Below are positions 2,671-13,909 of a DNA stretch of 34,632 bases, in pieces. A program made the position numbers and the translations under genes. Within the stretch, counting starts at the first letter, position 1. Each line of letters starts with the position of its first letter. The notes beneath the pieces were generated by a model. That model had not been told where the DNA came from and ran no database searches. It saw only the letters and a list, made by a program, of their open reading frames with translations. Source of the DNA: Bacteroidales bacterium (lineage in GTDB: Bacteria; Bacteroidota; Bacteroidia; Bacteroidales; GCA-2748055); NCBI GenBank assembly GCA_029938715.1, contig JAOZUK010000033.1, positions 1 to 34,632 on the forward strand. Direction: 5' to 3'.

Positions 2671-3291
2671 ATGAGCCCTGACCATCTTTTTTCCCTGTTT
2701 ACCTTCGAGAAGGAACTTCTGGAAGAAATTAATCATTCAGAAATCATCGAGATCGATCCGGGTACTGTAATCCTGAAGGAAAATGAATTTATTAAGGTTG
2801 TACCACTAGTTCTTGAAGGATCAATAAAGCTTCGGAAACTGGATCCCAGTGGCCGTGAGATAATATTTTATCACATTGAGCCGGGTGAAAGTTGTATACT
2901 CTCCATTACCTCCTGTGTAAATGGTAAGGAGAGTCAGGCAGAGGCAATTATTGAGAAGAAGACCCGACTGGTTGTGATTGAGGCTGAGAAAATCAGATCA
3001 TGGATGGACAGGTACCCCAGCTGGAGGAAATTTGTGATTAATTTGTACTATAACCGAATGGCTGAGCTAATGACACTGGTAGATCTGGTACTCTTTAAAA
3101 GTGTGGATGCAAGGCTAATCCAGCATCTGAAGGATCATGCTGTCAATAACGAGATTGAAATTACCCATCAGCAACTTGCCGGCGAACTGGGGACGGCCAG
3201 AGAGGTTATCTCCAGGTTGTTGAAGCAGATGGAAAGAGACCAGATGATCTCTCTGGAGAGAGGTAAGATCAAAATTATCAATCTATTGTGA
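2671..3291 (+). CDS. Crp/Fnr-family transcriptional regulator
   Basis: A 206-residue DNA-binding regulator: a cyclic-nucleotide-type beta-barrel sensor domain (about 1-115), a dimer helix (about 118-150) and a winged helix-turn-helix at 165-187 (THQQLAGELGTAREVISRLL). The recognition helix carries R177-E178-x-x-S-R182. The Arg-Glu...Arg pattern is the one E. coli CRP uses to read TGTGA, and three TGTGA-N6-TCACA-like sites lie just downstream (3286, 5491, 5562). There is no Fnr-type N-terminal cysteine cluster. Two cysteines (C75, C82) in the barrel are possible redox or metal sensors (inference). ATG 2671 is chosen over an upstream TTG at 2665. Its stop codon lies inside the first operator. 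Confidence 0.92.
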   Translation: MSPDHLFSLFTFEKELLEEINHSEIIEIDPGTVILKENEFIKVVPLVLEGSIKLRKLDPSGREIIFYHIEPGESCILSITSCVNGKESQAEAIIEKKTRLVVIEAEKIRSWMDRYPSWRKFVINLYYNRMAELMTLVDLVLFKSVDARLIQHLKDHAVNNEIEITHQQLAGELGTAREVISRLLKQMERDQMISLERGKIKIINLL

Positions 3292-3303
3292 CTCTGGTCA
3301 CAA
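3286..3303 (+). promoter_or_regulatory. Crp-type operator 1 (upstream of DUF2892 gene)
   Basis: TTGTGACTCTGGTCACAA is a perfect dyad with 7-bp arms (8 if the flanking A/T pair is counted) and matches TGTGA-N6-TCACA. It overlaps the stop codon of the regulator gene. Its centre (3294.5) is 30.5 bp before a consensus -7 box at 3325, which is class II activator spacing (about -41.5/-42.5). Confidence 0.85.
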
Positions 3304-3324
3304 TGTTCATGCAAATTGTGAAGC

Positions 3325-3332
3325 TATTTTTG
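3325..3332 (+). promoter_or_regulatory. -7 promoter element TATTTTTG
   Basis: This is a perfect match to the Bacteroidota TAnnTTTG element, 24 bases before the DUF2892 start codon. No -33 TTTG is obvious, which fits an activator-dependent promoter served by the operator at 3286-3303. Confidence 0.7.
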
Positions 3333-3355
3333 CACTAAATAAAAATTATTTAGTT

Positions 3356-3541
3356 ATGAAAAAGAACATAGGAATATCAGACAGATGGGTTCGTATTGTA
3401 ATTGGTCTGGCCATTGGTGCCGCCGGACTCTATTTTAAATCCTGGTGGGGACTGGTTGGGTTAATTCCCCTATCAACAGCACTCATAAGGACCTGCCCCC
3501 TATACCTTCCATTTAGAATTTCAACCAGAAGTACCAAATAA
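3356..3541 (+). CDS. DUF2892 (YgaP-like) small membrane protein
   Basis: A 61-residue protein with the pattern of the DUF2892/YgaP transmembrane family. An N-terminal MKKNIGISDRWVRIVIGL leads into a helical hairpin of about 14-30 and 32-46 around a SWWGLVGLIPL turn, followed by a conserved cysteine in RTCPLYLPF. In YgaP this domain follows a rhodanese domain; here it stands alone. It is encoded directly behind the Crp-type regulator and its promoter carries the best operator copy, so it is probably a target of that regulator. Its molecular role is unknown. A strong terminator follows. Confidence 0.85.
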   Translation: MKKNIGISDRWVRIVIGLAIGAAGLYFKSWWGLVGLIPLSTALIRTCPLYLPFRISTRSTK

Positions 3542-3573
3542 TTATACCGGGTTGTATCTGAGGTTTATAAGTT

Positions 3574-3604
3574 AAGCCATCTCGTATGAGGTGGCTTTTT
3601 CTTT
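3574..3604 (+). terminator. rho-independent terminator after DUF2892 gene
   Basis: AAGCCATCTC and GAGGTGGCTT form a 10-bp stem (one G-T pair) with a GTAT loop, followed by TTTTTCTTT. The placement, 32 bases after the stop codon, fits. Confidence 0.85.
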
Positions 3605-3610
3605 GAAGGA

Positions 3611-3642
3611 ATGAGAGGGTGCCCGAATGAACACCCTCTCAT
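3611..3642 (-). terminator. terminator hairpin for the convergent T9SS gene
   Basis: A perfect 11-bp stem (ATGAGAGGGTG / CACCCTCTCAT) with a 10-nt loop lies 28 bases past the stop of the minus-strand gene. The downstream T tract on that strand is weak (TCCTT), but the neighbouring hairpin at 3574 also reads into A/T on this side, so the pair probably ends transcription both ways. Confidence 0.65.
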
Positions 3643-3670
3643 CTAATCAAAAAATCAACTAATCGGAATT

Positions 3671-5365
3671 TTACCTCTTCACAAACCGGCTGAAATGAAC
3701 TTCTCTATCGATTGTTCTTACCTCAATTAAGTACACTCCCGGATTAATTCCCTTCAGTGTCATCTCGTATGTCCGGGCCTGAATGCCTGTTGATGTATTG
3801 ATCCGGGCACCCATAATGTTTATTAAGGATACAGATTCAATGACATCATCAGACCTGATGGTCAGCTTATTGAGGGCGGGATTGGGATATAATTCAAACC
3901 CGGTTGACTCAGTAAAATTTTCAACAACACTCACCAAAGGAGCCTCTAAGCCCTGTACTGCCACCGGCCAAACTCCCGGACTTGGCACGGAGACACCAGT
4001 GGCATCGCCCCTTAATGATTCTTCTCCAAAATAGTAGAGGGGCCAGCCGTTGTAGGTTAACTGTGAACGACCAAATACATCAATGGTCCCGAACATAGAT
4101 TTGTCAAGTGTTGAAGCCACTCCCTTGAGTTCCTCCTCATATATGGGCCACACAGAGTTATTACTGAAATCTGATTTTGTGAAGTTGTTCTGCTCATATG
4201 TGTCATTGATGAAAATATAGATCGTTCGACCATACTCATCCACAAAATACTGAACAATCTCTTCTCCGGGCTCATAGTTGCTGTTGTATGCAACTCCATC
4301 CTTTCCAATAAGAGGGCCATTCATCAACATAATGGTATAATCGGGCTTTGCCACAAACCAGACATTCCCAACAGCCTCACCTTTTGTTTCTCCGGGATTC
4401 AGGTCATTCGCCCAGTAGTAGAGCGGCCAGCCGTTGTAGGTGGTTTGCATTCCACCCTCTGGATGCTCAATTACGCCAAAGTCAGCCATATCGAGTCCAT
4501 CTCCCGGCTCCGGATCCTCCACATAAAATAGTGGCCAGTTATCCACACACACCCCGGTACATAATGAAGTATCCGGAAGGGCATCTTTGGTGAAATAGTA
4601 GAGCGTAAATCCAAAGGCGTCGGTGAGGATTGTTCCCAGCTCAGAATCTTCAGCAAGCATTATGTCTGGCCCCAATGATGACTGAATATCTGTGAAATTC
4701 GTGTTGTGATTGAACTCCACTTCCATATTTCCCATGGCTTCTCCTGCTTCAATTCTCCAGGCATGATCGGTGGGTGGGACATCATACATGCCATTTCCAT
4801 TGTGATCAGCATAGAAATCAACCACATACATGTTTCCAGATTCGATTACAGTAGATTTAATCTGGAAATCGGCATCCTCAATTTTGGGAATAACTATGGT
4901 GTCCATGGTTTCCATTGTAGATAAATCTCTCACATACAGGGTAAACATTTGTCCCACATGTGGAGTCATCCCGAAAAAGCTCACCGTCAGAGTATCGGGA
5001 GAGGGTTCAATAACACTCACAATTCCAACCATTCCAAGACTTACATGCGGATCACACTGGTAATCATACAATCCAGGCATTGTAAAGACATAGCTGTATA
5101 CCCAGCCACTTCCCACATCATTGCCGAAGGACTCAGGATTGGACGGGAATTTAGATTTCAAACCATTTACGTTGTGCCGGCCTTCAGAATTGGTCCAGAC
5201 CACCGTATCCCCCACATGAATGGAAATTGCATCAGGAGTAAATACGTTACTGGTGACATCCACCACATGGGATGTTTGAGCGTTTGCAGCCATTTGCAAT
5301 CCAGCTGCTAACATAAGAATCCAGATTCCCTGGATCCTGATTGATTTGGTAAATACTTTTTTCAT
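3671..5365 (-). CDS. secreted plastocyanin-like / PF03640-repeat protein with T9SS sorting domain
   Basis: 564 residues. A signal peptide (1-30) is followed by a cupredoxin domain (about 31-120) with a full type 1 copper set: H64, C104, H107 and M112. A 120-220 domain contains DHNGNGMYD. Then come four copies of the GxxLYxFxxD-like motif of the PF03640/COG4315 secreted-repeat family: GFTLYYFTKD (~252), GWPLYYWAND (~313), GRTIYIFIND (~380) and GWPLYYFGEE (~440). A C-terminal T9SS type A domain (~490-564, LYPNPALNKL...FSRFVKR) completes it. It is probably a surface-exposed copper electron-transfer or copper-binding protein; the substrate is unknown. It is transcribed away from the cytochrome gene, each side with its own Crp-type operator. 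I have not seen this domain order named before. Confidence 0.85.
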   Translation of the reverse strand: MKKVFTKSIRIQGIWILMLAAGLQMAANAQTSHVVDVTSNVFTPDAISIHVGDTVVWTNSEGRHNVNGLKSKFPSNPESFGNDVGSGWVYSYVFTMPGLYDYQCDPHVSLGMVGIVSVIEPSPDTLTVSFFGMTPHVGQMFTLYVRDLSTMETMDTIVIPKIEDADFQIKSTVIESGNMYVVDFYADHNGNGMYDVPPTDHAWRIEAGEAMGNMEVEFNHNTNFTDIQSSLGPDIMLAEDSELGTILTDAFGFTLYYFTKDALPDTSLCTGVCVDNWPLFYVEDPEPGDGLDMADFGVIEHPEGGMQTTYNGWPLYYWANDLNPGETKGEAVGNVWFVAKPDYTIMLMNGPLIGKDGVAYNSNYEPGEEIVQYFVDEYGRTIYIFINDTYEQNNFTKSDFSNNSVWPIYEEELKGVASTLDKSMFGTIDVFGRSQLTYNGWPLYYFGEESLRGDATGVSVPSPGVWPVAVQGLEAPLVSVVENFTESTGFELYPNPALNKLTIRSDDVIESVSLINIMGARINTSTGIQARTYEMTLKGINPGVYLIEVRTIDREVHFSRFVKR

Positions 5366-5461
5366 AATCTATCACTTTTAAATAAACATAAGAACTTCGA
5401 ACTTCACTGGTGAAGTGACTGGTGGAAAGATGATTACTGGAGAAAGATATAATGTATGAAG

Positions 5462-5469
5462 TAAAAGTA
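5462..5469 (-). promoter_or_regulatory. -7 promoter element TACTTTTA (leftward)
   Basis: On the minus strand this matches TAnnTTTG except for the last base. It lies 30.5 bp from the centre of the operator at 5491-5508, the same distance as in the other two promoters of the set. Confidence 0.6.
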
Positions 5470-5490
5470 TCAGGAAATTGTATAGATATA

Positions 5491-5508
5491 GTGTAACCAG
5501 GGTCACAA
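5491..5508 (-). promoter_or_regulatory. Crp-type operator 2 (upstream of plastocyanin-like gene)
   Basis: On the minus strand TTGTGACCCTGGTTACAC differs from operator 1 at three of 18 positions and keeps TGTGA on the promoter-distal side. The shared CTGG core suggests common ancestry or a wider recognition sequence than TGTGA alone. Confidence 0.75.
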
Positions 5509-5561
5509 TGGCATGCCGATAAACTGTTAATTTTGTGTTAATTAATAAGTTACGAGGTCAT

Positions 5562-5579
5562 TTGTGACTCTGGTTACAT
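5562..5579 (+). promoter_or_regulatory. Crp-type operator 3 (upstream of cytochrome gene)
   Basis: TTGTGACTCTGGTTACAT differs from operator 1 at two of 18 positions, both in the promoter-proximal arm. Its centre (5570.5) is 30.5 bp before the -7 box at 5601. Confidence 0.8.
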
Positions 5580-5600
5580 TAATTCCTCTTACAAATTCTC

Positions 5601-5608
5601 TAATTTTA
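5601..5608 (+). promoter_or_regulatory. -7 promoter element TAATTTTA (rightward)
   Basis: It matches TAnnTTTG except for the final base and is spaced from operator 3 exactly as in the sister promoters. The predicted transcript starts near 5612, giving a leader of about 65 bases. Confidence 0.6.
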
Positions 5609-5677: not shown

Positions 5678-6043
5678 ATGAAAAAAAACATCATTTTTCT
5701 CCTTATCTACATAGCTGTTTATGGATGCTACTGGGAGAATCAGGAGGCCCTCTATCCCGTAGATCAGTTTTGTGATACAGCTTTCGTCTCTTTTTCCGGG
5801 GATATTCTTCCGATCCTGACCAACAACTGCTTCTCCTGCCATAGCAACTCCAATGCGCCTGAAAATGCCTTTGGCATCACCCTTGAAGATCATGTGGATG
5901 TTTCTGCCTCCGCAATCCTTATTATCGGGGCCATCAATCACCTGGAGGGCTTCCCTCAGATGCCAAAAAACGGTGTCAAACTGGATACATGTAAAATCAA
6001 GGTTTTTGAGGCCTGGGAAAACCAGGGCAGCCTTGATAACTGA
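5678..6043 (+). CDS. monoheme c-type cytochrome-like lipoprotein
   Basis: 121 residues. The N-terminus (MKKNIIFLLIYIAVYGC) has a lipoprotein signal with cysteine at residue 17. A single heme-binding CxxCH is seen in NNCFSCHSN, and GFPQMPKNG supplies the likely distal methionine ligand. DILPILTNNCFSCH is typical of the small periplasmic cytochromes of Bacteroidota that precede surface electron-transfer or oxidase components. It is first in a + strand set with the DUF5777 (26-base gap) and YceI-like genes, behind Crp-type operator 3. It probably carries electrons in the periplasm; the partner is unknown. Confidence 0.85.
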   Translation: MKKNIIFLLIYIAVYGCYWENQEALYPVDQFCDTAFVSFSGDILPILTNNCFSCHSNSNAPENAFGITLEDHVDVSASAILIIGAINHLEGFPQMPKNGVKLDTCKIKVFEAWENQGSLDN

Positions 6044-6069: not shown

Positions 6070-6972
6070 ATGAGAGATAATAAAATATACCTACTCTTAT
6101 TCTTGATATTAGCTTCCTTCCAGGTTTCTGGTCAGGATCTGGAATCCATGCTTGAAGGGCAGATGGAAAAGACCACAGATTATACTTTTGCCACCTTTAA
6201 GTCAACCCGTATTCTGAATGGTCATTCCATTGAACACCTTGAAGAGGGTCAGCTTGATTTCAGAATCTCCCACAGGTTTGGACGGATCAACTCGGGTGCT
6301 TACGAGTTTTTTGGGCTGGATCAGGCACATATTCATTTAAGCCTGGAATATGGGATTAAGGATTGGATCATGGTAGGACTGGGCAGAGGTACCTTTGAAA
6401 AAACTGTGGATGGGTTTACAAAAATCAAATTACTCCGGCAATCAAAAGGAGTAAAGAGCTCACCGGTATCCATTTCAATCATGTCTGGAATTTATGTCAA
6501 TGGACTGCGTTGGGAGGATAGAGAAAGAGACAATTACTTTTGGCAACGACTTGATTTTGTGCACCAAATAATGATAGCTAGGAAGTTCAGCCCGGGTTTT
6601 TCTTTGCAATTAACCCCCTCCTATCTTCACCGTAACATGGTGGAAACAGCTAACGATCCAAATGATATTTTTTCCATTGGGGCAGGTTCAAGGTTGAAGC
6701 TCACCAAAAGACTCTCTATCAATGCGGAGTACTTCTATCTTTTTAAACCTGACAATGATCTGCTGTCCACCGAAATTTACAATCCGTTTTCACTGGGGCT
6801 CGATATTGAGACCGGTGGGCATGTCTTCCACATCATATTAACAAACTCTGTGGGAATGCGTGAAAACGGATTTCTTGGCCATACCACTGGCAGCTGGCTC
6901 AATGGAGATATTCATCTGGGATTCAACATCTCCAGGATATTTCAGCTAAAAAAAAATGAAAACTATCAATGA
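6070..6972 (+). CDS. DUF5777 family beta-barrel-like protein
   Basis: 300 residues with a signal peptide (MRDNKIYLLLFLILASFQVSGQ). The body alternates short beta stretches, with features of DUF5777: LEEGQLDFRISHRFGRINSGAYEFFGLDQAHIHLSLEYGIKDWIMVGLGRG. An outer-membrane barrel is likely; the function is not established. The ATG at 6070 is preferred over a TTG at 6064. Its stop overlaps the YceI-like start (ATGA), indicating translational coupling. Family genes commonly accompany YceI and small cytochromes (recollection), in keeping with this operon. Confidence 0.8.
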   Translation: MRDNKIYLLLFLILASFQVSGQDLESMLEGQMEKTTDYTFATFKSTRILNGHSIEHLEEGQLDFRISHRFGRINSGAYEFFGLDQAHIHLSLEYGIKDWIMVGLGRGTFEKTVDGFTKIKLLRQSKGVKSSPVSISIMSGIYVNGLRWEDRERDNYFWQRLDFVHQIMIARKFSPGFSLQLTPSYLHRNMVETANDPNDIFSIGAGSRLKLTKRLSINAEYFYLFKPDNDLLSTEIYNPFSLGLDIETGGHVFHIILTNSVGMRENGFLGHTTGSWLNGDIHLGFNISRIFQLKKNENYQ

Positions 6973-7523
6973 TGAAAAAATCAGTTGCATGCCTGATAAT
7001 GACGATAATATTGCCCTTCACGATTCAGGGACAGGGAAAATATCTTACCAATAATGGGGTCATCAGCTTCTATTCTCATACCATCGTAGAAGATATTACA
7101 GCAGTAAACAATGAGGTGGCTGCTGTTATTGACGGATCCTCTGGCGAAGTAGTAATTATTTTGAAAATGACGCAGTTTCAATTCGAAAAAAAGATGATGC
7201 AGGAGCATTTCAATGAGAACTATTTGGAATCCGAAATCTTTCCTAAGGCCACTTTTTCAGGAACAATTCTTAACAATGATGACGTAAAATATAGTATTCC
7301 CGGCCTGTATGAAGTAAAGGTGAAAGGGGAAATGACCATCCATGGTCAAACGAAAACTATATCTGAAGAGGGAACCGTTAAAATAACCTCCTCCGGAATT
7401 GTCTGCAGTACAAAATTTAAGCTCAATCCGGAGGACTATAAAATTAAAATCCCCGGGATGGTTCGAAAAAACATCTCCAAACAGATGGAAATCACAGTAG
7501 AATTACCCTGTGAACTCATTTAA
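6969..7523 (+). CDS. YceI-like periplasmic lipid-binding protein
   Basis: 184 residues with an N-terminal signal peptide (MMKKSVACLIMTIILPFTIQGQ). The YceI/PF04264 lipocalin-like barrel is recognisable: NNGVISFYSHTIVEDITAVN, the FQFEKKMMQEHFNENYLESEIFPKATFSG segment, and a VKGEMTIHGQTKTI strand pair. YceI proteins bind isoprenoid or amphiphilic ligands, and some are linked to respiratory quinone or stress functions. The ATGA overlap with the DUF5777 gene ties it to the cytochrome operon, so it is probably under the same Crp-type control. The ligand cannot be read from sequence. Confidence 0.88.
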   Translation: MMKKSVACLIMTIILPFTIQGQGKYLTNNGVISFYSHTIVEDITAVNNEVAAVIDGSSGEVVIILKMTQFQFEKKMMQEHFNENYLESEIFPKATFSGTILNNDDVKYSIPGLYEVKVKGEMTIHGQTKTISEEGTVKITSSGIVCSTKFKLNPEDYKIKIPGMVRKNISKQMEITVELPCELI

Positions 7524-7555: not shown

Positions 7556-10500
7556 TTATAATTCAGGGGTAAGCCACACCTGTATCAGAGTGATTTCCCC
7601 TGTTCTTCTAAATATCTTATTGCTATTCAACGGATCGATAGTGTCTCCTGCAATCTTCAGTTCGGAGCCGTCTTTGAGATGCAGCTTGACCTTCCGTTGC
7701 TCAGAAAGGTGGTATTTAACCGGAACCTGACAATAGGTGAATGCCAATGTATCCTTTTCCATTGGAATCACATTTTTGCTATCCTCCAAATCATAACAAA
7801 TAAACTGGTCAGCTTTTGAAAGGAATTCTTGCCTCCTTAGAAGGATGGGGTGAAATACAATTGAGCCCTCCCTGGCCAGGATACCCAGCTCTCCCCACCT
7901 GGCCAGGATATCCTCCTTCACCTGGCCTGTCATTCCTGGTTGCTGGGCACCTTTATTTCCCGGAGAATGTGAATAGGGATCGGTAGGAAATGCTCCGTAA
8001 ACATCGGGATCCTTATTCAATCCTATTCCAGCCCTGATTGCATAATAGTGTTCTACCAATCTACCAAGGATCTCTTTGTTATGGGGCTCTGAATCCGCTA
8101 TATAATAAATGTCGCAAACAGCCAGCAACAATTTGGACACCATATGCCAGTATATGCTTCCCAATCCCTCATACCCATAAAATGTACCTGATCGGCCTGT
8201 AAATGATTGGTGATCGAAAACCTGCTCATAGATATCCAGAATAAGTTGGGTCTCGTCGGTTACCATCTGGGCATATGGCCCGGATAAATTATCAAGAGCC
8301 TCCTTCAGAAGACCCGCATTTCTTAAATTCCCATTAAAATGATATTCTCCATTCAAATCTTCAACCAGAATCTGTTCATTGGATCGGTCAACAAGGGTTT
8401 TCAATAATAGAGAACGCTCAACTAACCCGGATGGAATCCTGTTTTTTTCCATGAAAGAGGGCAGGATGCGATCGGGATAGAGGATATAACTAAACTGGTC
8501 CTCCCGAAACAGTTTGCTATTTCTCAGAGCATCCAGCAGAGATACAGCTTCTTTAGAGGATAAAACGCCCGAACTTAATACCGCTACCTGACCCTCAAGC
8601 ATCTCATACAACCTCCGCAAAAAAAGTTGATCCGCCTCCACACGCATCAGGTTATAAGAGTGGTAGAGCTGATCGCTCCGGGCATTGGACGCAATGGTGA
8701 TTTCCAATGTCCGGAGGGCCTCATCTAGAAATTCCAGGATCTGATCTACTCCGACCTCTACCCTTTTTCCGGAGAATCCATCCAAATAGATACCCTGCCT
8801 GTATTCGCTTCCGGCCTCACCCAACAAATCCATGCACACTTTCATCCCTCTCTCAGAAAGCATGGTTTCGGGGCTATGCAGTTGATTTTTTACAATCTTT
8901 TTAATGCGGATTAAAAGTCCGGCTACCTCCTCAGACATCCGTACGGATTCCTTTGTATAGCTTTTAAACAGATCCAGGCAGAATTTAAGGAATGCCCTAA
9001 GGTAATAGGTAGTGACCATTGAAACACCCGATCCCACCAGGGCATTATTGGCATCGTTCCATTCGGGTCGCTGTGTATTCATCCAGATCCCTGCTCCGGG
9101 AATAAAATTGGACAGTTTAGAAAGCAGTGTAACAAAAAGCTTTTCTGCAAGGTTTACATTCATTACCTGATCACTCTTATCCCAAACCAGCTTTCCATCG
9201 GATCCCAGTGACTTTACCCTTCTGCCAATCTTCTCCTCAAGCATTGTATCAAATAGAATGGTATCACGAGGATCGCTTAGAAGTTCTCTGTAAGGTTTAA
9301 TTCTGTAAGGCACATTGGCATAACTGAACAGGTCCTGAGACAAAAGCCTGTGCAGATGTCCGGGATGATGGTCTGTGGATAATTCCAGGAATTTTAGCAG
9401 GTAGACAATCTGGTGGTCTCCCCAGTATCCGATGTTTGACCATGGATCTGAAGGATCAGGAACCTCCCAGTCAATCCCATTGCGGGTGATCCGGTAAGGA
9501 TTGTATCCATCCGGTGTGGATGCATTCACAAATTTAGAGATCATGCTCTCTATATACTCTGGAAATGAAAGGCACAATGCTTCCCAGTTCTGAAATATAT
9601 CGCGCCAGTTCCCCTGGAAGTCCAGGTTTTTACTTCCATCCTCTCTCCGGTTTTCAATGGAAAACTTATTCCATGGCCGGCTGGGATCTCCATGACGACG
9701 GCTAAAGGTAAGTGGCAGGTATTCGTAACAGAGCCGGGTCAGGCCCGGGTCATCCTGATTGCCCGCCAATTCCAGTAAGTCGTTGTACAGGATTCTCTGG
9801 TCGGAAGATTTCAACATGGCATTTGCCTGTTGAACAAGGCCCCTATTGGCTTGAGCAATAAAAGCAAGAAAGTCAGGTATGCCTACTCTATAACCCTCGG
9901 GAAACATCCCACCTCGCATCACATTAAACAGCACATTGGTAAGGTGTCTTGAAGTGCTTAATTCGTCATTGGTGCATTGCAAGGCGTCGGATGCCGCCAG
10001 GATGTGCCCGAGTTCATCGGTGCTCCCTTTGATATGCTCCTTTAACAACTGTCTCAACTCCTTCTTCGATTTGAGGAGCTTTAATAAACCGGCGATATCC
10101 GCTGTATCCTGGTTAACCTCAGCCACAATGCTCCACTCCTTGGTTGCGCCCATGGGGATCTCAACACGGGCATTCAGGAAGTAAGCTCCCCTGGTGGCTT
10201 TGACATCATGCTCTGTGATCAATGGGAAACCCGACCGAAAAGAGTCCAGTTGATTGCTGGAAAGTAAAATTGTTGCATCCTCCAGACCTTCAGACCAAAC
10301 CGTGTTGACCTTCAGGGCTTCACTGGGTTCGGCTGTATCAGAGGGGACAGAACTCAAGCGGTAAATACCAAGTGCAACCTCTGGAATCAACTCCTGCCGT
10401 TTGTAGGCATCCAGCAGGTTGCTGGAACTGGACTGAAGTCCGCTGTCCACATGGCATGGCAGAATATTCTGTAACCCATCCAGTATATCCACCTCAACAC

Positions 10501-11014
10501 CATTTGAACCCTGATTTGTCAGCTTCGCCTGCTTTACGAATCCAAAACGGTCACAGTTATACCAACCATACCTGTAGGTCAGTGAGAGATCTTCATTGAC
10601 CTCTTCAAAAATCAATTTGTTGCCATAGAGGTTCTTATAGATGTTTCTCTTCACTGAATAAACTCCAATCTGCTTACCACCAAGAGGTTCCCATAACTTC
10701 AGGGTTGAATCATGGTTAACAATAAGGATGGTTTTACTACCCGTAATATCCCTGTAATCGTGGATCTTATCCTCCGAATAATAAGGAAATAGGGCAGCTT
10801 CTGAATTCTTCCGCCCCGCAGTCAGGGATCCATTGCTGGAGATAAACATCCACTGGTCAGATGCACTCACGATACTCATGAAAAAATCGGGCATCTGATC
10901 AAAATTTGAGATCTTATAAAACCTCTCCCCGTCCAGATCCACAAATTCACCACCTGTAAATGCTTCATTTACTTTGACAGGGCTATCACCTATGAAGATA
11001 TTACTCCTCTTCAT
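7556..11014 (-). CDS. GH149/GH94-like glucan phosphorylase (probable beta-1,3-glucan phosphorylase)
   Basis: 1152 residues, no signal peptide, so cytoplasmic. The N-terminal third is beta-rich, the middle resembles an (alpha/alpha)6 barrel (GNWRDIFQNWEAL, WSNIGYWGDHQIVYLLKFLEL), and RPEWNDANNALVG holds W652-N653-D654 at the place of the GH94/GH149 catalytic acid. Later RSGTFYGYEGLGSIYWHM resembles the phosphate/active-site loop region. Such enzymes release glucose 1-phosphate from beta-glucan ends. The length of about 1100-1180 residues fits GH149 or GH161 better than GH94 (about 800). It is last in an operon with a GH16 laminarinase-like protein (5-base gap) and a sugar porter, supporting beta-1,3-glucan as substrate. 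Family choice is from memory; another clan GH-Q enzyme is possible. Confidence 0.62.
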   Translation of the reverse strand: MKRSNIFIGDSPVKVNEAFTGGEFVDLDGERFYKISNFDQMPDFFMSIVSASDQWMFISSNGSLTAGRKNSEAALFPYYSEDKIHDYRDITGSKTILIVNHDSTLKLWEPLGGKQIGVYSVKRNIYKNLYGNKLIFEEVNEDLSLTYRYGWYNCDRFGFVKQAKLTNQGSNGVEVDILDGLQNILPCHVDSGLQSSSSNLLDAYKRQELIPEVALGIYRLSSVPSDTAEPSEALKVNTVWSEGLEDATILLSSNQLDSFRSGFPLITEHDVKATRGAYFLNARVEIPMGATKEWSIVAEVNQDTADIAGLLKLLKSKKELRQLLKEHIKGSTDELGHILAASDALQCTNDELSTSRHLTNVLFNVMRGGMFPEGYRVGIPDFLAFIAQANRGLVQQANAMLKSSDQRILYNDLLELAGNQDDPGLTRLCYEYLPLTFSRRHGDPSRPWNKFSIENRREDGSKNLDFQGNWRDIFQNWEALCLSFPEYIESMISKFVNASTPDGYNPYRITRNGIDWEVPDPSDPWSNIGYWGDHQIVYLLKFLELSTDHHPGHLHRLLSQDLFSYANVPYRIKPYRELLSDPRDTILFDTMLEEKIGRRVKSLGSDGKLVWDKSDQVMNVNLAEKLFVTLLSKLSNFIPGAGIWMNTQRPEWNDANNALVGSGVSMVTTYYLRAFLKFCLDLFKSYTKESVRMSEEVAGLLIRIKKIVKNQLHSPETMLSERGMKVCMDLLGEAGSEYRQGIYLDGFSGKRVEVGVDQILEFLDEALRTLEITIASNARSDQLYHSYNLMRVEADQLFLRRLYEMLEGQVAVLSSGVLSSKEAVSLLDALRNSKLFREDQFSYILYPDRILPSFMEKNRIPSGLVERSLLLKTLVDRSNEQILVEDLNGEYHFNGNLRNAGLLKEALDNLSGPYAQMVTDETQLILDIYEQVFDHQSFTGRSGTFYGYEGLGSIYWHMVSKLLLAVCDIYYIADSEPHNKEILGRLVEHYYAIRAGIGLNKDPDVYGAFPTDPYSHSPGNKGAQQPGMTGQVKEDILARWGELGILAREGSIVFHPILLRRQEFLSKADQFICYDLEDSKNVIPMEKDTLAFTYCQVPVKYHLSEQRKVKLHLKDGSELKIAGDTIDPLNSNKIFRRTGEITLIQVWLTPEL

Positions 11015-11019
11015 ATCAA

Positions 11020-12327
11020 TTACCTCCGTTCATAAACACGTACATAGTCAATCACCACCTGTTGCGAAGTCACAGACTCATCCATGCCCTGGGCTCCTCC
11101 CCAGCCTCCACCCATGGCAAGGTTCAGAATAATGTTCTGAGGTTCATTGTAGGGCCAGGTCAGCGAATCAGAAGTATCTTCATAGGTAAAATAATGCACA
11201 TCATCCACAAACGCCTTGATGTACTCCGGAGTCCATTCAATGGCATATAAATGATATTCACTATTCATGGATTTAACTTCGGTAATGCCTGTGGGTTGGT
11301 TATTGAGTTTGAAATAGTATGCCCCACAGTGAACCGAAGCGTGGTGAAGCCCATCACCGGTCAGATCATCAATCTCAAATCCCACACACTCCAGAATGTC
11401 GATCTCCCCGCAGTAGGGCCATGATAGCTCATCCACATATTTATCACCCAGCATCCAGCCGGCCGTCCAATTTCCCTTCTCCACAGGCACCTTTGCCCTC
11501 ATTTCGATCCTTCCATACACAAAGCTGGTCTTTCCCCTTGTGGTTAACCTTGCAGAAGTCCACTTCTCCCCCATATGGTTTTTATGTGATTCTATGATCA
11601 GGTTCCCGTTTTCTATGCGGGCATTTTCCTTGTTGCCCTCTGTATAGTATTGCAATTCGTTGTTGCCCCAGCCCCAGTTTCCGATATCGTAGGTCCACTT
11701 TGCCAGATCGGGCTGATCTCCCTTGTCAAACTCATCGGACCAGACAACCACCCATTCATCCCCTTTTGTGTTCTGCATTAACATCTCAGGGGAACCCTGG
11801 TGCTTCTTAAGCAGTGTGAAATTGATCCAGTCCACACGGGCTTCTCCCCCCTGAATATGCAACCTCATTTTATGTATTCCACTGTTAAGAGGTGTTCCAT
11901 CCTTGTGGACAGTAATCAGCTGGTCCTTTTGATCTGAAACCGGAAACTCCAGGGACCCTGTAACGTTAAAGGTTCGACCATCCTTGTTGTCGATGTAGTC
12001 TTCCAGCCAGCAGGTGACAGGGAGCTCTGATCCGGCAGCAAGGCGGACCTCTGTCTTATATCTTCCGGGGACCCGGATGGGTACATCAACTGTAAGCCAG
12101 CCATCCTCTGGCACCTTAATAACCTGATCGCCAGACTCCAGTGTAACAACCTCCACATCAGTGTTTGAACCTGTATGGTTTTCCATTTCAACCCTCACTT
12201 CCGTTGTCTTATCACCTGCAGATTGTGACTGCTTTGAGGAATTTCCATCACCAGTTTGGTTACAAGAAAAGAGAGAGGTAGCAATGATCAATATTGAACC
12301 CAGTGCGCTTGCGGATAGCGTTTTCAT
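11020..12327 (-). CDS. GH16 beta-glucanase (laminarinase-like) lipoprotein with CBM6-like domain
   Basis: About 435 residues with a lipoprotein signal ending ATSLFSC (C22); an ATG at 12339 would add four residues. An N-terminal beta-sandwich domain (about 50-170; VDVPIRVPGRYKTEV ... GIHKMRLHIQGGEARVDWINF) resembles CBM6-type sugar-binding modules. The C-terminal GH16 domain (about 185-435) begins WSDEFDKG and contains the GEIDILE catalytic motif (nucleophile E308, acid/base E313), then NIILNLAMGGGWGG and a terminal VIDYVRVYE strand. It should cut beta-1,3 (or mixed-linkage) glucan in the periplasm or at the cell surface. The gene lies 19 bases after the sugar-porter stop and 5 before the phosphorylase-like gene, in one operon. 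Confidence 0.9.
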   Translation of the reverse strand: MKTLSASALGSILIIATSLFSCNQTGDGNSSKQSQSAGDKTTEVRVEMENHTGSNTDVEVVTLESGDQVIKVPEDGWLTVDVPIRVPGRYKTEVRLAAGSELPVTCWLEDYIDNKDGRTFNVTGSLEFPVSDQKDQLITVHKDGTPLNSGIHKMRLHIQGGEARVDWINFTLLKKHQGSPEMLMQNTKGDEWVVVWSDEFDKGDQPDLAKWTYDIGNWGWGNNELQYYTEGNKENARIENGNLIIESHKNHMGEKWTSARLTTRGKTSFVYGRIEMRAKVPVEKGNWTAGWMLGDKYVDELSWPYCGEIDILECVGFEIDDLTGDGLHHASVHCGAYYFKLNNQPTGITEVKSMNSEYHLYAIEWTPEYIKAFVDDVHYFTYEDTSDSLTWPYNEPQNIILNLAMGGGWGGAQGMDESVTSQQVVIDYVRVYERR

Positions 12328-12346
12328 ATGATGTATCATTTAGGAT

Positions 12347-13909
12347 TTATGACTTAACAAGTATCTTCTCTAACTCTTCCAGTGACTTCCCTTTGGTTTC
12401 AGGAACAACCATGAGAACAAAGATCAACCCAATGGCCCCGAAAATTCCATAAATAAGAAATGTCCCGGAAGTACCCAATGTGGACAGCTCCCAGGGGAAA
12501 ATCAGCTGTACGGAGAAACTAACAGCCGAGTTTATAAAGCCCACGAAAGAGATTGCCAGACCCCTGATCCAGTTGGGAAACAGTTCCGAGAACAATACCC
12601 ACATCACAGGCCCAAGAGATACGGCAAAAGATGCCACAAATCCTAGGATTCCTATCAATATCAGTAGAGGATTGCTGTCAATGGCCCCGGCGATCAACTC
12701 GGATTCATACTCCTTCAAAATCGAAGGTTCCAGGATTTCATTCAATTTGCGCTTGAACTTCACATCGCTATCAAATTGCTGATCCTGGATCGAGTAGAGT
12801 GCTTCCTTATCCACCCGCTCAGGCATTTGCTCTATGGTATCTGCAGTGAGCTGATAGGTAGCAGCATTAAACCCATAGGCCAGGATAAACATAAAGATTG
12901 CGATTCCAGCCAGTCCGATTCCAAGAAGGGGTTTACGTCCCAATTTGTCAATAAACAGTATGGCCACCAAAGTGAAAACCAGATTGGTAAGCCCCACAAG
13001 AATGGCCTGTGAAAAAGCAGCATCGGTTCCTATTCCGGATTGCTCGAAAATCATCGGTGCATAAAAAAAGACTGAATTAATACCGGTAATTTGCTGCAGT
13101 ATTGCCAATCCTACCCCTATGACCAGCACCAGTTTCAATGCAGGTTGAAACAGTTCCCTGAGCGGGATCTTCTCTTTTTTAGTGGTGGATTGAAGGCTTG
13201 CTTTAATATTTTCGAATTCGAGCCTGGCGTTCTCTTCCTCATTGGCCCTGACCAAAACGGTCATCGCCTCATCGTTTTTCCCTTTCAACATTAACCACCT
13301 TGGACTCCTTGGCACAAAAAACAGGGCAACAAAATAGAGTATTGCCGGCAGAGCCTCCAGCCCTAACATCCATCTCCAGTTGTACTGTTCTATACCCAGT
13401 GTAGCCACCCACGAAGCTTCTGATGATCCCAATCGAAGTATCAGGTAATTGGTGAAAAAGGCCACTGAAATACCCAGTACGATATTCAATTGATTAAAAG
13501 AGACCAACCGGCCCCTCATCTTTGGCGGGGATATTTCAGCAATAAACAGTGGAGCGATAATCAAAGATGATCCCACTCCTATACCTCCTATCATGCGCGC
13601 AATGACCAGGAGTGTGAAATTGGGTGCCAGTGCAGAGCCTACTGCCGAAAATGCAAATAGCACTGCTGCCCATTTTAGTACGGTCCTTCTGCCAATCCGG
13701 TCGCTTACTGGTCCCGCAGCCATCATCGCTAGCGTTGCAAACAGGGTAAGGCTACTCACCGACCAGCCCAGCTGAATTTTTGTCAGGTCAAACTGTGGCT
13801 CGATAAATTTTACAACACCCGATATTACAGAGGCATCGAACCCCATCAGGAATCCTCCCAGGGCAACCGTCAAGGCAACCCGGATGGTAAAGAGCTGATT
13901 TTTTTTCAT
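12347..13909 (-). CDS. MFS sugar porter (sugar:H+ symporter)
   Basis: 520 residues with 12 predicted membrane helices. Sugar-porter signatures are present: DRIGRRTVLKWA after helix 2, VPRSPRWLMLKG before the central loop, LQQITGINSVFFYAP in helix 7, DKLGRKPLLGIG and the C-terminal VPETKGKSLEELE. A long insert of about 60 charged residues (QMPERVDKEALYSIQ...) sits between helices 9 and 10, as often in Bacteroidota members. It would import glucose or short gluco-oligosaccharides across the inner membrane. It is first in the operon with GH16 and the phosphorylase-like gene. A 16-bp dyad 61 bases upstream may be its operator. Confidence 0.9.
   Translation of the reverse strand: MKKNQLFTIRVALTVALGGFLMGFDASVISGVVKFIEPQFDLTKIQLGWSVSSLTLFATLAMMAAGPVSDRIGRRTVLKWAAVLFAFSAVGSALAPNFTLLVIARMIGGIGVGSSLIIAPLFIAEISPPKMRGRLVSFNQLNIVLGISVAFFTNYLILRLGSSEASWVATLGIEQYNWRWMLGLEALPAILYFVALFFVPRSPRWLMLKGKNDEAMTVLVRANEEENARLEFENIKASLQSTTKKEKIPLRELFQPALKLVLVIGVGLAILQQITGINSVFFYAPMIFEQSGIGTDAAFSQAILVGLTNLVFTLVAILFIDKLGRKPLLGIGLAGIAIFMFILAYGFNAATYQLTADTIEQMPERVDKEALYSIQDQQFDSDVKFKRKLNEILEPSILKEYESELIAGAIDSNPLLILIGILGFVASFAVSLGPVMWVLFSELFPNWIRGLAISFVGFINSAVSFSVQLIFPWELSTLGTSGTFLIYGIFGAIGLIFVLMVVPETKGKSLEELEKILVKS

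Follow-up and report, generated by a model that had tools for sequence, protein, structure and literature searches.

The stretch analysed here (the window) is a contig of 34,632 nucleotides, JAOZUK010000033.1, from a Bacteroidales bacterium; it is the whole of that contig (C759) in an assembly of 6.2 Mb and 945 contigs. It encodes a regulator of the Crp/Fnr family, and the adjoining DNA holds three dyads, each followed at the same distance by a promoter box and by one or more candidate target genes. These features are listed below by position, strand and content.

2671-3291, plus: Crp/Fnr-family regulator, 206 amino acids from ATG (a possible alternative start, TTG, lies at 2665), with Cys75, Cys82 and R177-E178-V-I-S-R182
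3286-3303, plus: operator 1, TTGTGACTCTGGTCACAA, a perfect dyad TTGTGAC-N4-GTCACAA (sequence and pattern scan)
3325-3332, plus: -7 box of target 1, TATTTTTG, 30.5 bp from the centre of operator 1
3356-3541, plus: target 1, YgaP-like transmembrane protein (DUF2892), 61 amino acids (PF11127)
3671-5365, minus: target 2, secreted protein with an N-terminal cupredoxin domain, Lipoprotein_15 repeats and a type IX secretion tail (PF00127, PF03640, PF18962)
5462-5469, minus: -7 box of target 2, TACTTTTA, starting at 5469 and reading leftward (pattern scan)
5491-5508, minus: operator 2, TTGTGACCCTGGTTACAC (sequence and pattern scan)
5562-5579, plus: operator 3, TTGTGACTCTGGTTACAT (sequence and pattern scan)
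5601-5608, plus: -7 box of target 3, TAATTTTA (pattern scan)
5678-6043, plus: target 3a, c-type cytochrome-like lipoprotein with one CxxCH (NNCFSCHS; translation)
6070-6972, plus: target 3b, DUF5777 membrane beta-barrel protein (PF19089)
6969-7523, plus: target 3c, YceI-family protein (PF04264)

The original prediction had described these promoters as sharing one geometry. The three dyads and three boxes do lie at the predicted positions, and the distance from dyad centre to box is 30.5 bp in every case, as confirmed from the sequence and by scanning. In 300 dinucleotide shuffles of the window, the dyad TGTGACN4GT(C/T)ACA never appeared, against four observed strand-hits at three places. The exact pattern TTGTGACNNNGGTNACA, which was fitted to these sites, occurs three times in the genome, always in the window. 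A scan of the 6.2 Mb genome with the dyad and the 30.5-bp spacing combined (TTGTGACN4GTCACAA, 21 spacer bases, TAnnTTTG; up to three mismatches), as the original prediction had proposed, returned these three promoters and no others, compared with one place for a reversed control pattern; at this spacing and mismatch limit, no wider regulon was found in the organism's own genome. At 29.5 bp (20 spacer bases), the scan gave four places: two were additional readings of operator 1, one was the thioredoxin promoter on contig C556, and the last was a C477 palindrome that lacks a usable box.

In Flavobacterium, the TAnnTTTG box spans -12 to -5 (PMC9723704), which places the dyad centre at -42.5 for a spacing of 30.5 bp and at -41.5 for 29.5 bp. 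The sites in the window are therefore near -42, as had been claimed, though not exactly at -41.5.

Proteins of the Crp/Fnr superfamily combine a beta barrel of the cNMP-binding type with a dimer helix and, at the C-terminus, a Crp-type winged helix. The regulator scored above the Pfam cut-offs for HTH_Crp_2 and cNMP_binding. Its AlphaFold model has a mean confidence (predicted local distance difference test, pLDDT) of 89.4 and, in a comparison with the Protein Data Bank (PDB), CRP-fold chains headed the 618 matches with E<=0.001, with Z up to 16.7; the protein belongs to the superfamily. The [4Fe-4S] cluster of FNR is held by four cysteines; the window protein has two, and identity with an Fe-S FNR was rejected on these residues from the alignment. 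In CRP, the phosphate-binding cassette IGEL...RSA provides the contacts to cyclic AMP (cAMP). The segment aligned to it here reads GESCILSITSC...SQAEA, and identity with a cAMP-binding CRP was likewise rejected. The cysteine and cassette data speak against sensing of the Fe-S FNR type and of cAMP, but both heme sensing and thiol or sulfur sensing would be compatible with them. Translation and alignment show R177-E178-V-I-S-R182 in the open reading frame adjoining the sites, and the proposed fit of R177-E178-x-x-S-R182 to TGTGA agrees with the pairing of Arg180/Glu181 with half-site bases G3/A6 in a comparison of Crp/Fnr proteins from 2005 (PMC1274295). Identity with HcpR was rejected on motif and targets: the dyad is GTGACnnnnGT(C/T)AC, Arg-Glu is kept in the recognition helix, and Hcp was not found among the window proteins scanned with Pfam.

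Both the operators and their spacing are conserved in relatives. A protein scan of 80 related genomes found six close regulators (52-78% identity) and one broken copy besides the window's own, and a scan of a species-genome collection found 27 regulator loci, several of them on the same contigs. Twenty loci from Bacteroidia and Flavobacteriia were compared: the window, L056-L073 and L045, the broken copy in genome G003. Loci with distant regulators (L074-L082; 44% identity or less) were kept outside this set. Operators were hand-picked as dyads near the regulator, from the pattern scan and from reading by eye. They were found with a box at 29.5 or 30.5 bp in 19 of the 20 loci, window included, and number 22, of which 13 have the box at 30.5 bp and nine at 29.5 bp. 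The comparison with orthologues that the original prediction had proposed as a check thus came out in its favour, but a uniform 30.5 bp holds only within the window. All 22 listed operators hence fall at the class II position, with start sites inferred from the box. The boxes read TAnnTTT(G/A) in 21 of the 22 (TAACTTCG in L065), and dyad positions 3, 4, 6, 7, 13, 15 and 16 are invariant throughout. The remaining locus, L071, has a dyad one base off by eye and was counted as a miss. As a control, no further dyads of the searched form were found in the same loci more than 3.6 kb from the regulator. Seven of 33 box distances were 29.5 bp and 13 were 30.5 bp; the next most frequent were 17.5 bp (three) and 18.5 bp (six), with boxes on the opposite strand. 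These nine opposite-strand readings are probably due to coding sequence. In the window, an opposite-strand TAnnTTTG box lies at 3270-3277, 17.5 bp from the centre of operator 1 and inside the last codons of the regulator.

Operator 1 overlaps the end of the regulator gene, the last codon TTG and the stop codon TGA (3289-3291) lying within its left half, a feature that the original prediction did not mention. Among the 19 loci whose regulator is intact, the operator and the last sense codon begin at the same base in 11 (the window, L056, L057, L058, L060, L061, L062, L064, L067, L070 and L072), where TTG-TGA, TTG-TAA or CTG-TAA serves as both protein end and left half-site. In the broken G003 copy, the operator likewise lies at the end of the regulator gene, and decayed dyads were seen by eye at this place in L068 and L069. 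Because of this overlap, the left half-site is under two constraints, while GT(C/T)AC, the right half, lies outside the coding sequence and is conserved in its own right. The embedding of operator 1 in the gene end also makes regulator, operator and first target a single cassette.

The operators track the regulator rather than the targets. YgaP-type proteins gave 37 matches in the 80 genomes, of which the 30 with a locus were used and the seven without were left out; for these loci and those of DUF5777, the dyad and box patterns were looser than in the shuffle test. An operator with box was found in 10 of 11 YgaP loci with a family regulator nearby and in 1 of 19 without (Fisher p 4e-6, relatedness ignored); one of these 11 regulators is broken and four are only 34-38% identical to that of the window. 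DUF5777 matches occur in 44 of the 80 genomes, and 25 of 30 loci were scanned, five being left out. Only two of the 25 have the operator, namely the two beside a regulator. Genome G063 has the regulator, and its DUF5777 genes lie elsewhere in the genome without an operator. Within the genus, YgaP was found in four of five genomes with the regulator (one broken) and in none of 13 without, several of which are incomplete. In G015, a genome of the same genus that is 88% complete and in which only the paralogue described below was found, the cupredoxin and cytochrome genes have the same arrangement and their intergenic stretch contains no dyad. This linkage of operator to regulator is the best indirect evidence, drawn from sequence comparison, that the adjoining protein is the predicted binder.

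Similar geometry recurs with other operator types. The composite pattern gave 43 matches over the 80 genomes, compared with six for a reversed control. In 14 loci and L050, the sequence TGTGACN4GTTACA, mostly followed by G, lies 29.5 bp from the box before a thioredoxin gene (Pfam was run on L091 only). This type occurs in the genus and in two further genera. All 15 genomes that carry it match a paralogous Crp/Fnr protein, with Cys75-Cys81-Cys82 in the 13 checked by sequence. An example of each is:

L050 3707-3724 (own genome, contig C556): thioredoxin-type operator, with the gene from about 3783; likewise in L086-L092, L096-L101 and L105
L046 7447-8025, minus: paralogous Crp/Fnr protein

The paralogue may be the regulator of these sites. 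Six genomes (G001, G012, G019, G022, G027 and G041) have a paralogue-like match and no thioredoxin-type site by exact pattern. A third sequence, TGTAACN4GTTACA, lies at 29.5 bp before the gene for Hcp (L083) or for 4Fe-4S proteins (L103, L104, L106, L107, L108 and L111; Pfam on L104), and equals the HcpR2 motif described in PMC1274295. Four further matches (L085, L095, L109 and L110) precede other or unclear genes, including one for cytochrome c (L109).

Target 1 has a Cys47-Pro48 pair that is invariant in 15 aligned relatives. The window copy of target 3a had no Pfam or NCBIfam match, and its relative in L058 weakly matched a cytochrome c551 model (20.8 bits, cut-off 118; E 0.00028). In L058, the operator is followed by genes for a Rieske lipoprotein, an HsmA-family membrane protein, a cytochrome and DUF5777. 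YgaP is followed by Rieske in L056 and by HsmA in L059 (second genes by BLAST clustering), and L073 has separate operators upstream of the cupredoxin and YgaP genes. In Flavobacteriia, the gene after the operator (L063, L065, L068 and L069) or after the one-off dyad (L071) encodes a protein with an apparent signal peptide, as judged by eye. Its AlphaFold model (pLDDT 84) matches DsrE/DsrF, YchN and DsrEFH structures, so that a DsrE fold is predicted, and its single cysteine position, 103, is invariant in all five. In L076, and partly in L075 (Kapaibacteria/Ignavibacteria), a shorter dyad, GTGA-N5-TCAC, was seen by eye about 29 bp before TATTTTTG upstream of YgaP; in L076 it adjoins the distant regulator and may be a variant of the same operator.

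Both cysteines of the regulator are invariant in its clade. All 51 family proteins examined have Cys75; 24 of them came from a whole-protein search made without the motif and 26 from a scan in which one of two patterns included Cys75. Cys82 is present in all 19 members of the regulator's own clade (clade support 0.93). The paralogous clade, also of 19 proteins, has Cys-Cys at 81-82, and L075 and L076 have a cysteine one residue before the Cys82 position. The model (pLDDT 89) has a helix of residues 76-84 in the area that corresponds to the cAMP pocket of CRP; Cys75 is at the start of this helix and Cys82 seven residues on.

The architecture of sites, spacing and conservation is well supported; computation shows these as well as the linkage of operator to regulator, the invariant cysteines and the target families. 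The interpretation given in the original prediction is largely supported. To explain the architecture, we propose that the regulator, presumably as a dimer, binds GTGAC-N4-GT(C/T)AC at three nearby promoters. From dyads about 42 bp upstream of the transcription start, it would recruit polymerase with the housekeeping sigma-A as a class II activator. The local regulon would comprise three transcripts: the YgaP-type membrane protein, the secreted cupredoxin, and an envelope operon of cytochrome c, DUF5777 barrel and YceI. The signal would be thiol redox state or reactive sulfur, sensed through Cys75 and Cys82. We infer the dimer, the binding, the activation and the signal alike. Taken whole, this explanation is probably right, and activation overall is likely. 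That the regulator is an activator, as its position and the parallel with HcpR suggest, is a slightly firmer proposition than the whole. Hcp and 4Fe-4S proteins are a known kind of target of HcpR, which responds to nitric oxide (NO); the near-identical geometry (29.5 bp) upstream of their genes supports activation. The nature of the signal is a more tentative matter. A thiol or reactive sulfur state is a credible candidate, though short of an even bet, and two points were counted in favour of a sulfur theme: the predicted DsrE fold in the Flavobacteriia loci, and the control of E. coli ygaP by the sulfide-responsive YgaV (PMC9774250). In our ranking it stands ahead of a heme-bound gas, with some other signal as the remaining choice. 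A bolder version seems doubtful, if possible: a Crp/Fnr clade would sense persulfide or polysulfide directly via Cys75 and Cys82 at one helix of the former cAMP pocket, needing neither nucleotide, heme nor Fe-S cluster; it would drive a small regulon for sulfur and electron transfer in the envelope (YgaP-type, DsrE-type, Rieske, cupredoxin and cytochrome proteins) from an operator in its own stop codon, and a paralogous clade with the same cysteine region would control thioredoxin.

Several observations weigh against these proposals. Among the nine distant loci, some of which were also read by eye, the scan found a dyad and box near the regulator in only one (L079, with three mismatches), and in L163 a family regulator adjoins YgaP without an operator. 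Genome G026 (L171; 99% complete) keeps the dyad and a weaker box, TAATATTG, at 29.5 bp before YgaP, and no relative of the regulator was found in it. By eye, the dyad directly follows an epimerase-like gene where the regulator stands in other genomes, which points to its loss; the YgaP of G026 has also lost the proline after the conserved cysteine. In G003, the regulator gene is broken and operator, box and YgaP are intact (L045 10100-10515, minus strand), the break being an internal deletion with a frame change or an assembly fault. As both genomes keep dyads, an operator can persist after its regulator has gone. Most distant members (L074, L077 and L079-L081) lack Cys82, so a two-cysteine mechanism cannot be family-wide, and the YgaP-adjoining regulators of G042, G043 and G075 have Cys75 only. 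As to the sulfur theme, the rhodanese domain of E. coli YgaP is missing from the target here, and the L069 copy of the DsrE-type protein matched DsrE at 21.3 bits, below the Pfam cut-off of 22.7, its assignment relying on the predicted fold.

The same regulator and sites could instead serve a gas signal, namely NO, carbon monoxide (CO) or O2, received through bound heme as in HcpR, DNR and CooA, with Cys75 as the heme ligand. We regard this as rather unlikely, although it draws support from PgRsp of Porphyromonas gingivalis, a likely relative. PgRsp binds heme and was modelled on 3DV8 (PMC6955866), which is also the best PDB sequence match of the window regulator, and its Cys76-x-Met78 resembles an SC(I/V)M motif that some family members carry. 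In R. rubrum CooA, Cys75 is a heme ligand (PMC6955866). Electron-transfer proteins are among the targets by Pfam, and in Bradyrhizobium a DUF2892 gene lies with trxC in the regulon of NnrR, which concerns nitric oxide (PMC6710368). However, none of the single variants C76A, M78A and H85A of PgRsp differed in heme binding, and heme left the DNA binding of PgRsp unaltered (PMC6955866). Moreover, HcpR-type sites with their own targets exist separately in these genomes, and Pfam detected neither Hcp nor globin nor NO reductase in the larger window reading frames or in the representatives scanned from related loci.

Crp/Fnr proteins classically activate from sites of the -41.5 class, which counts against a repressor that would cover the -33 region and block sigma-A until a signal removes it. 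Such a role is unlikely also in view of the promoters themselves, none of the 22 having TTTG in the -33 region and three having TTG, an activator-dependent look. That argument is tempered by the weakness of -33 motifs in the phylum anyway (PMC7366714). HcpR-type sites have nearly the same spacing, 29.5 bp, and HcpR activates hcp (PMC12750200). On the other side, a protein bound to a dyad at -42 would overlap the -33 region and could also repress, and the E. coli gene ygaP is itself controlled by a repressor, YgaV (PMC9774250). Use of the three sites by another Crp/Fnr protein, such as the paralogue at G000:C827, is improbable. The paralogue shares the R-E-V-I-S-R recognition helix by alignment, the similar operator TGTGACN4GTTACA precedes thioredoxin in its genomes, and G026 keeps the dyad before YgaP with no regulator found. 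Yet it matches in 18 of 18 genus genomes (partially in G012), while operators of the present type were found only in genomes with the adjoining regulator, G026, which lies outside the genus, excepted; the thioredoxin operators also differ, reading GTTACAG as a rule at a spacing of 29.5 bp. That the dyads are chance occurrences or repeats without function is hardly conceivable: the shuffles and the exact-pattern and mismatch genome scans reject it, conservation in 19 of 20 loci opposes it, and no point was found in its support.

The proposed activator has counterparts in several known systems. PgRsp (PMC6955866) is also a Bacteroidota Crp/Fnr protein, with 207 amino acids and a cysteine near position 75, and is linked to oxidative stress and bcp. 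It is likened here from its published description rather than its sequence, with no operator motif seen in the parts consulted, and differs in binding heme and in its targets, which are hmu, bcp and its own gene. HcpR/HcpR2 (PMC1274295) shares the family and a class II-like geometry in the same Bacteroidales genomes; HcpR2 differs in its motif, GTAACnnnnGTTAC, in a change of Glu181 to Pro and in targeting hcp, whereas the window regulator keeps Arg-Glu, has a GTGAC dyad and has targets other than hcp. E. coli CRP has the same fold, R-E-x-x-x-R helix (PMC1274295), a site of the TGTGA-N6-TCACA type and the class II position; in contrast, the window regulator is without the cAMP-binding cassette and is local, not global. 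The closest PDB sequence match, 3DV8 (E 1.5e-27), is a Crp/Fnr protein of Eubacterium rectale from structural genomics with two cysteines in the same segment; the second is one residue off in the alignment, and the entry title gives no function. YgaV belongs to the ArsR family. With its SqrR/BigR relatives (PMC9774250), it resembles the present system as a cysteine-dependent regulator adjoining a YgaP-type gene, but is a repressor rather than a Crp/Fnr protein.

While class II regulons of Crp/Fnr proteins are well known, the sensor and target set here are unusual. In the literature searched, which lacked most subscription journals, the combination of regulator, operator and target set was not found described; as far as could be judged, the papers found for DUF2892 with Fnr concern other systems, and none was found for DUF5777. 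The analysis supplies one Bacteroidota subfamily of Crp/Fnr proteins with an operator, a rule for its spacing and a list of targets. As three operator types (YgaP, thioredoxin and hcp/ferredoxin) have nearly the same spacing in these genomes, looking for a dyad with TAnnTTT 29.5-30.5 bp away offers a practical way to find Crp/Fnr regulons in this phylum, whose promoters are unusual. Should the cysteines indeed be the sensor, Crp/Fnr proteins would provide a further route to sulfur sensing, next to those of YgaV, SqrR and BigR.

Beyond the regulator and its targets, positions 7556-13909 of the window encode in a row a beta-1,3-glucan phosphorylase (GH149), a GH16 family enzyme and a sugar transporter, likely a set for beta-glucan utilisation.

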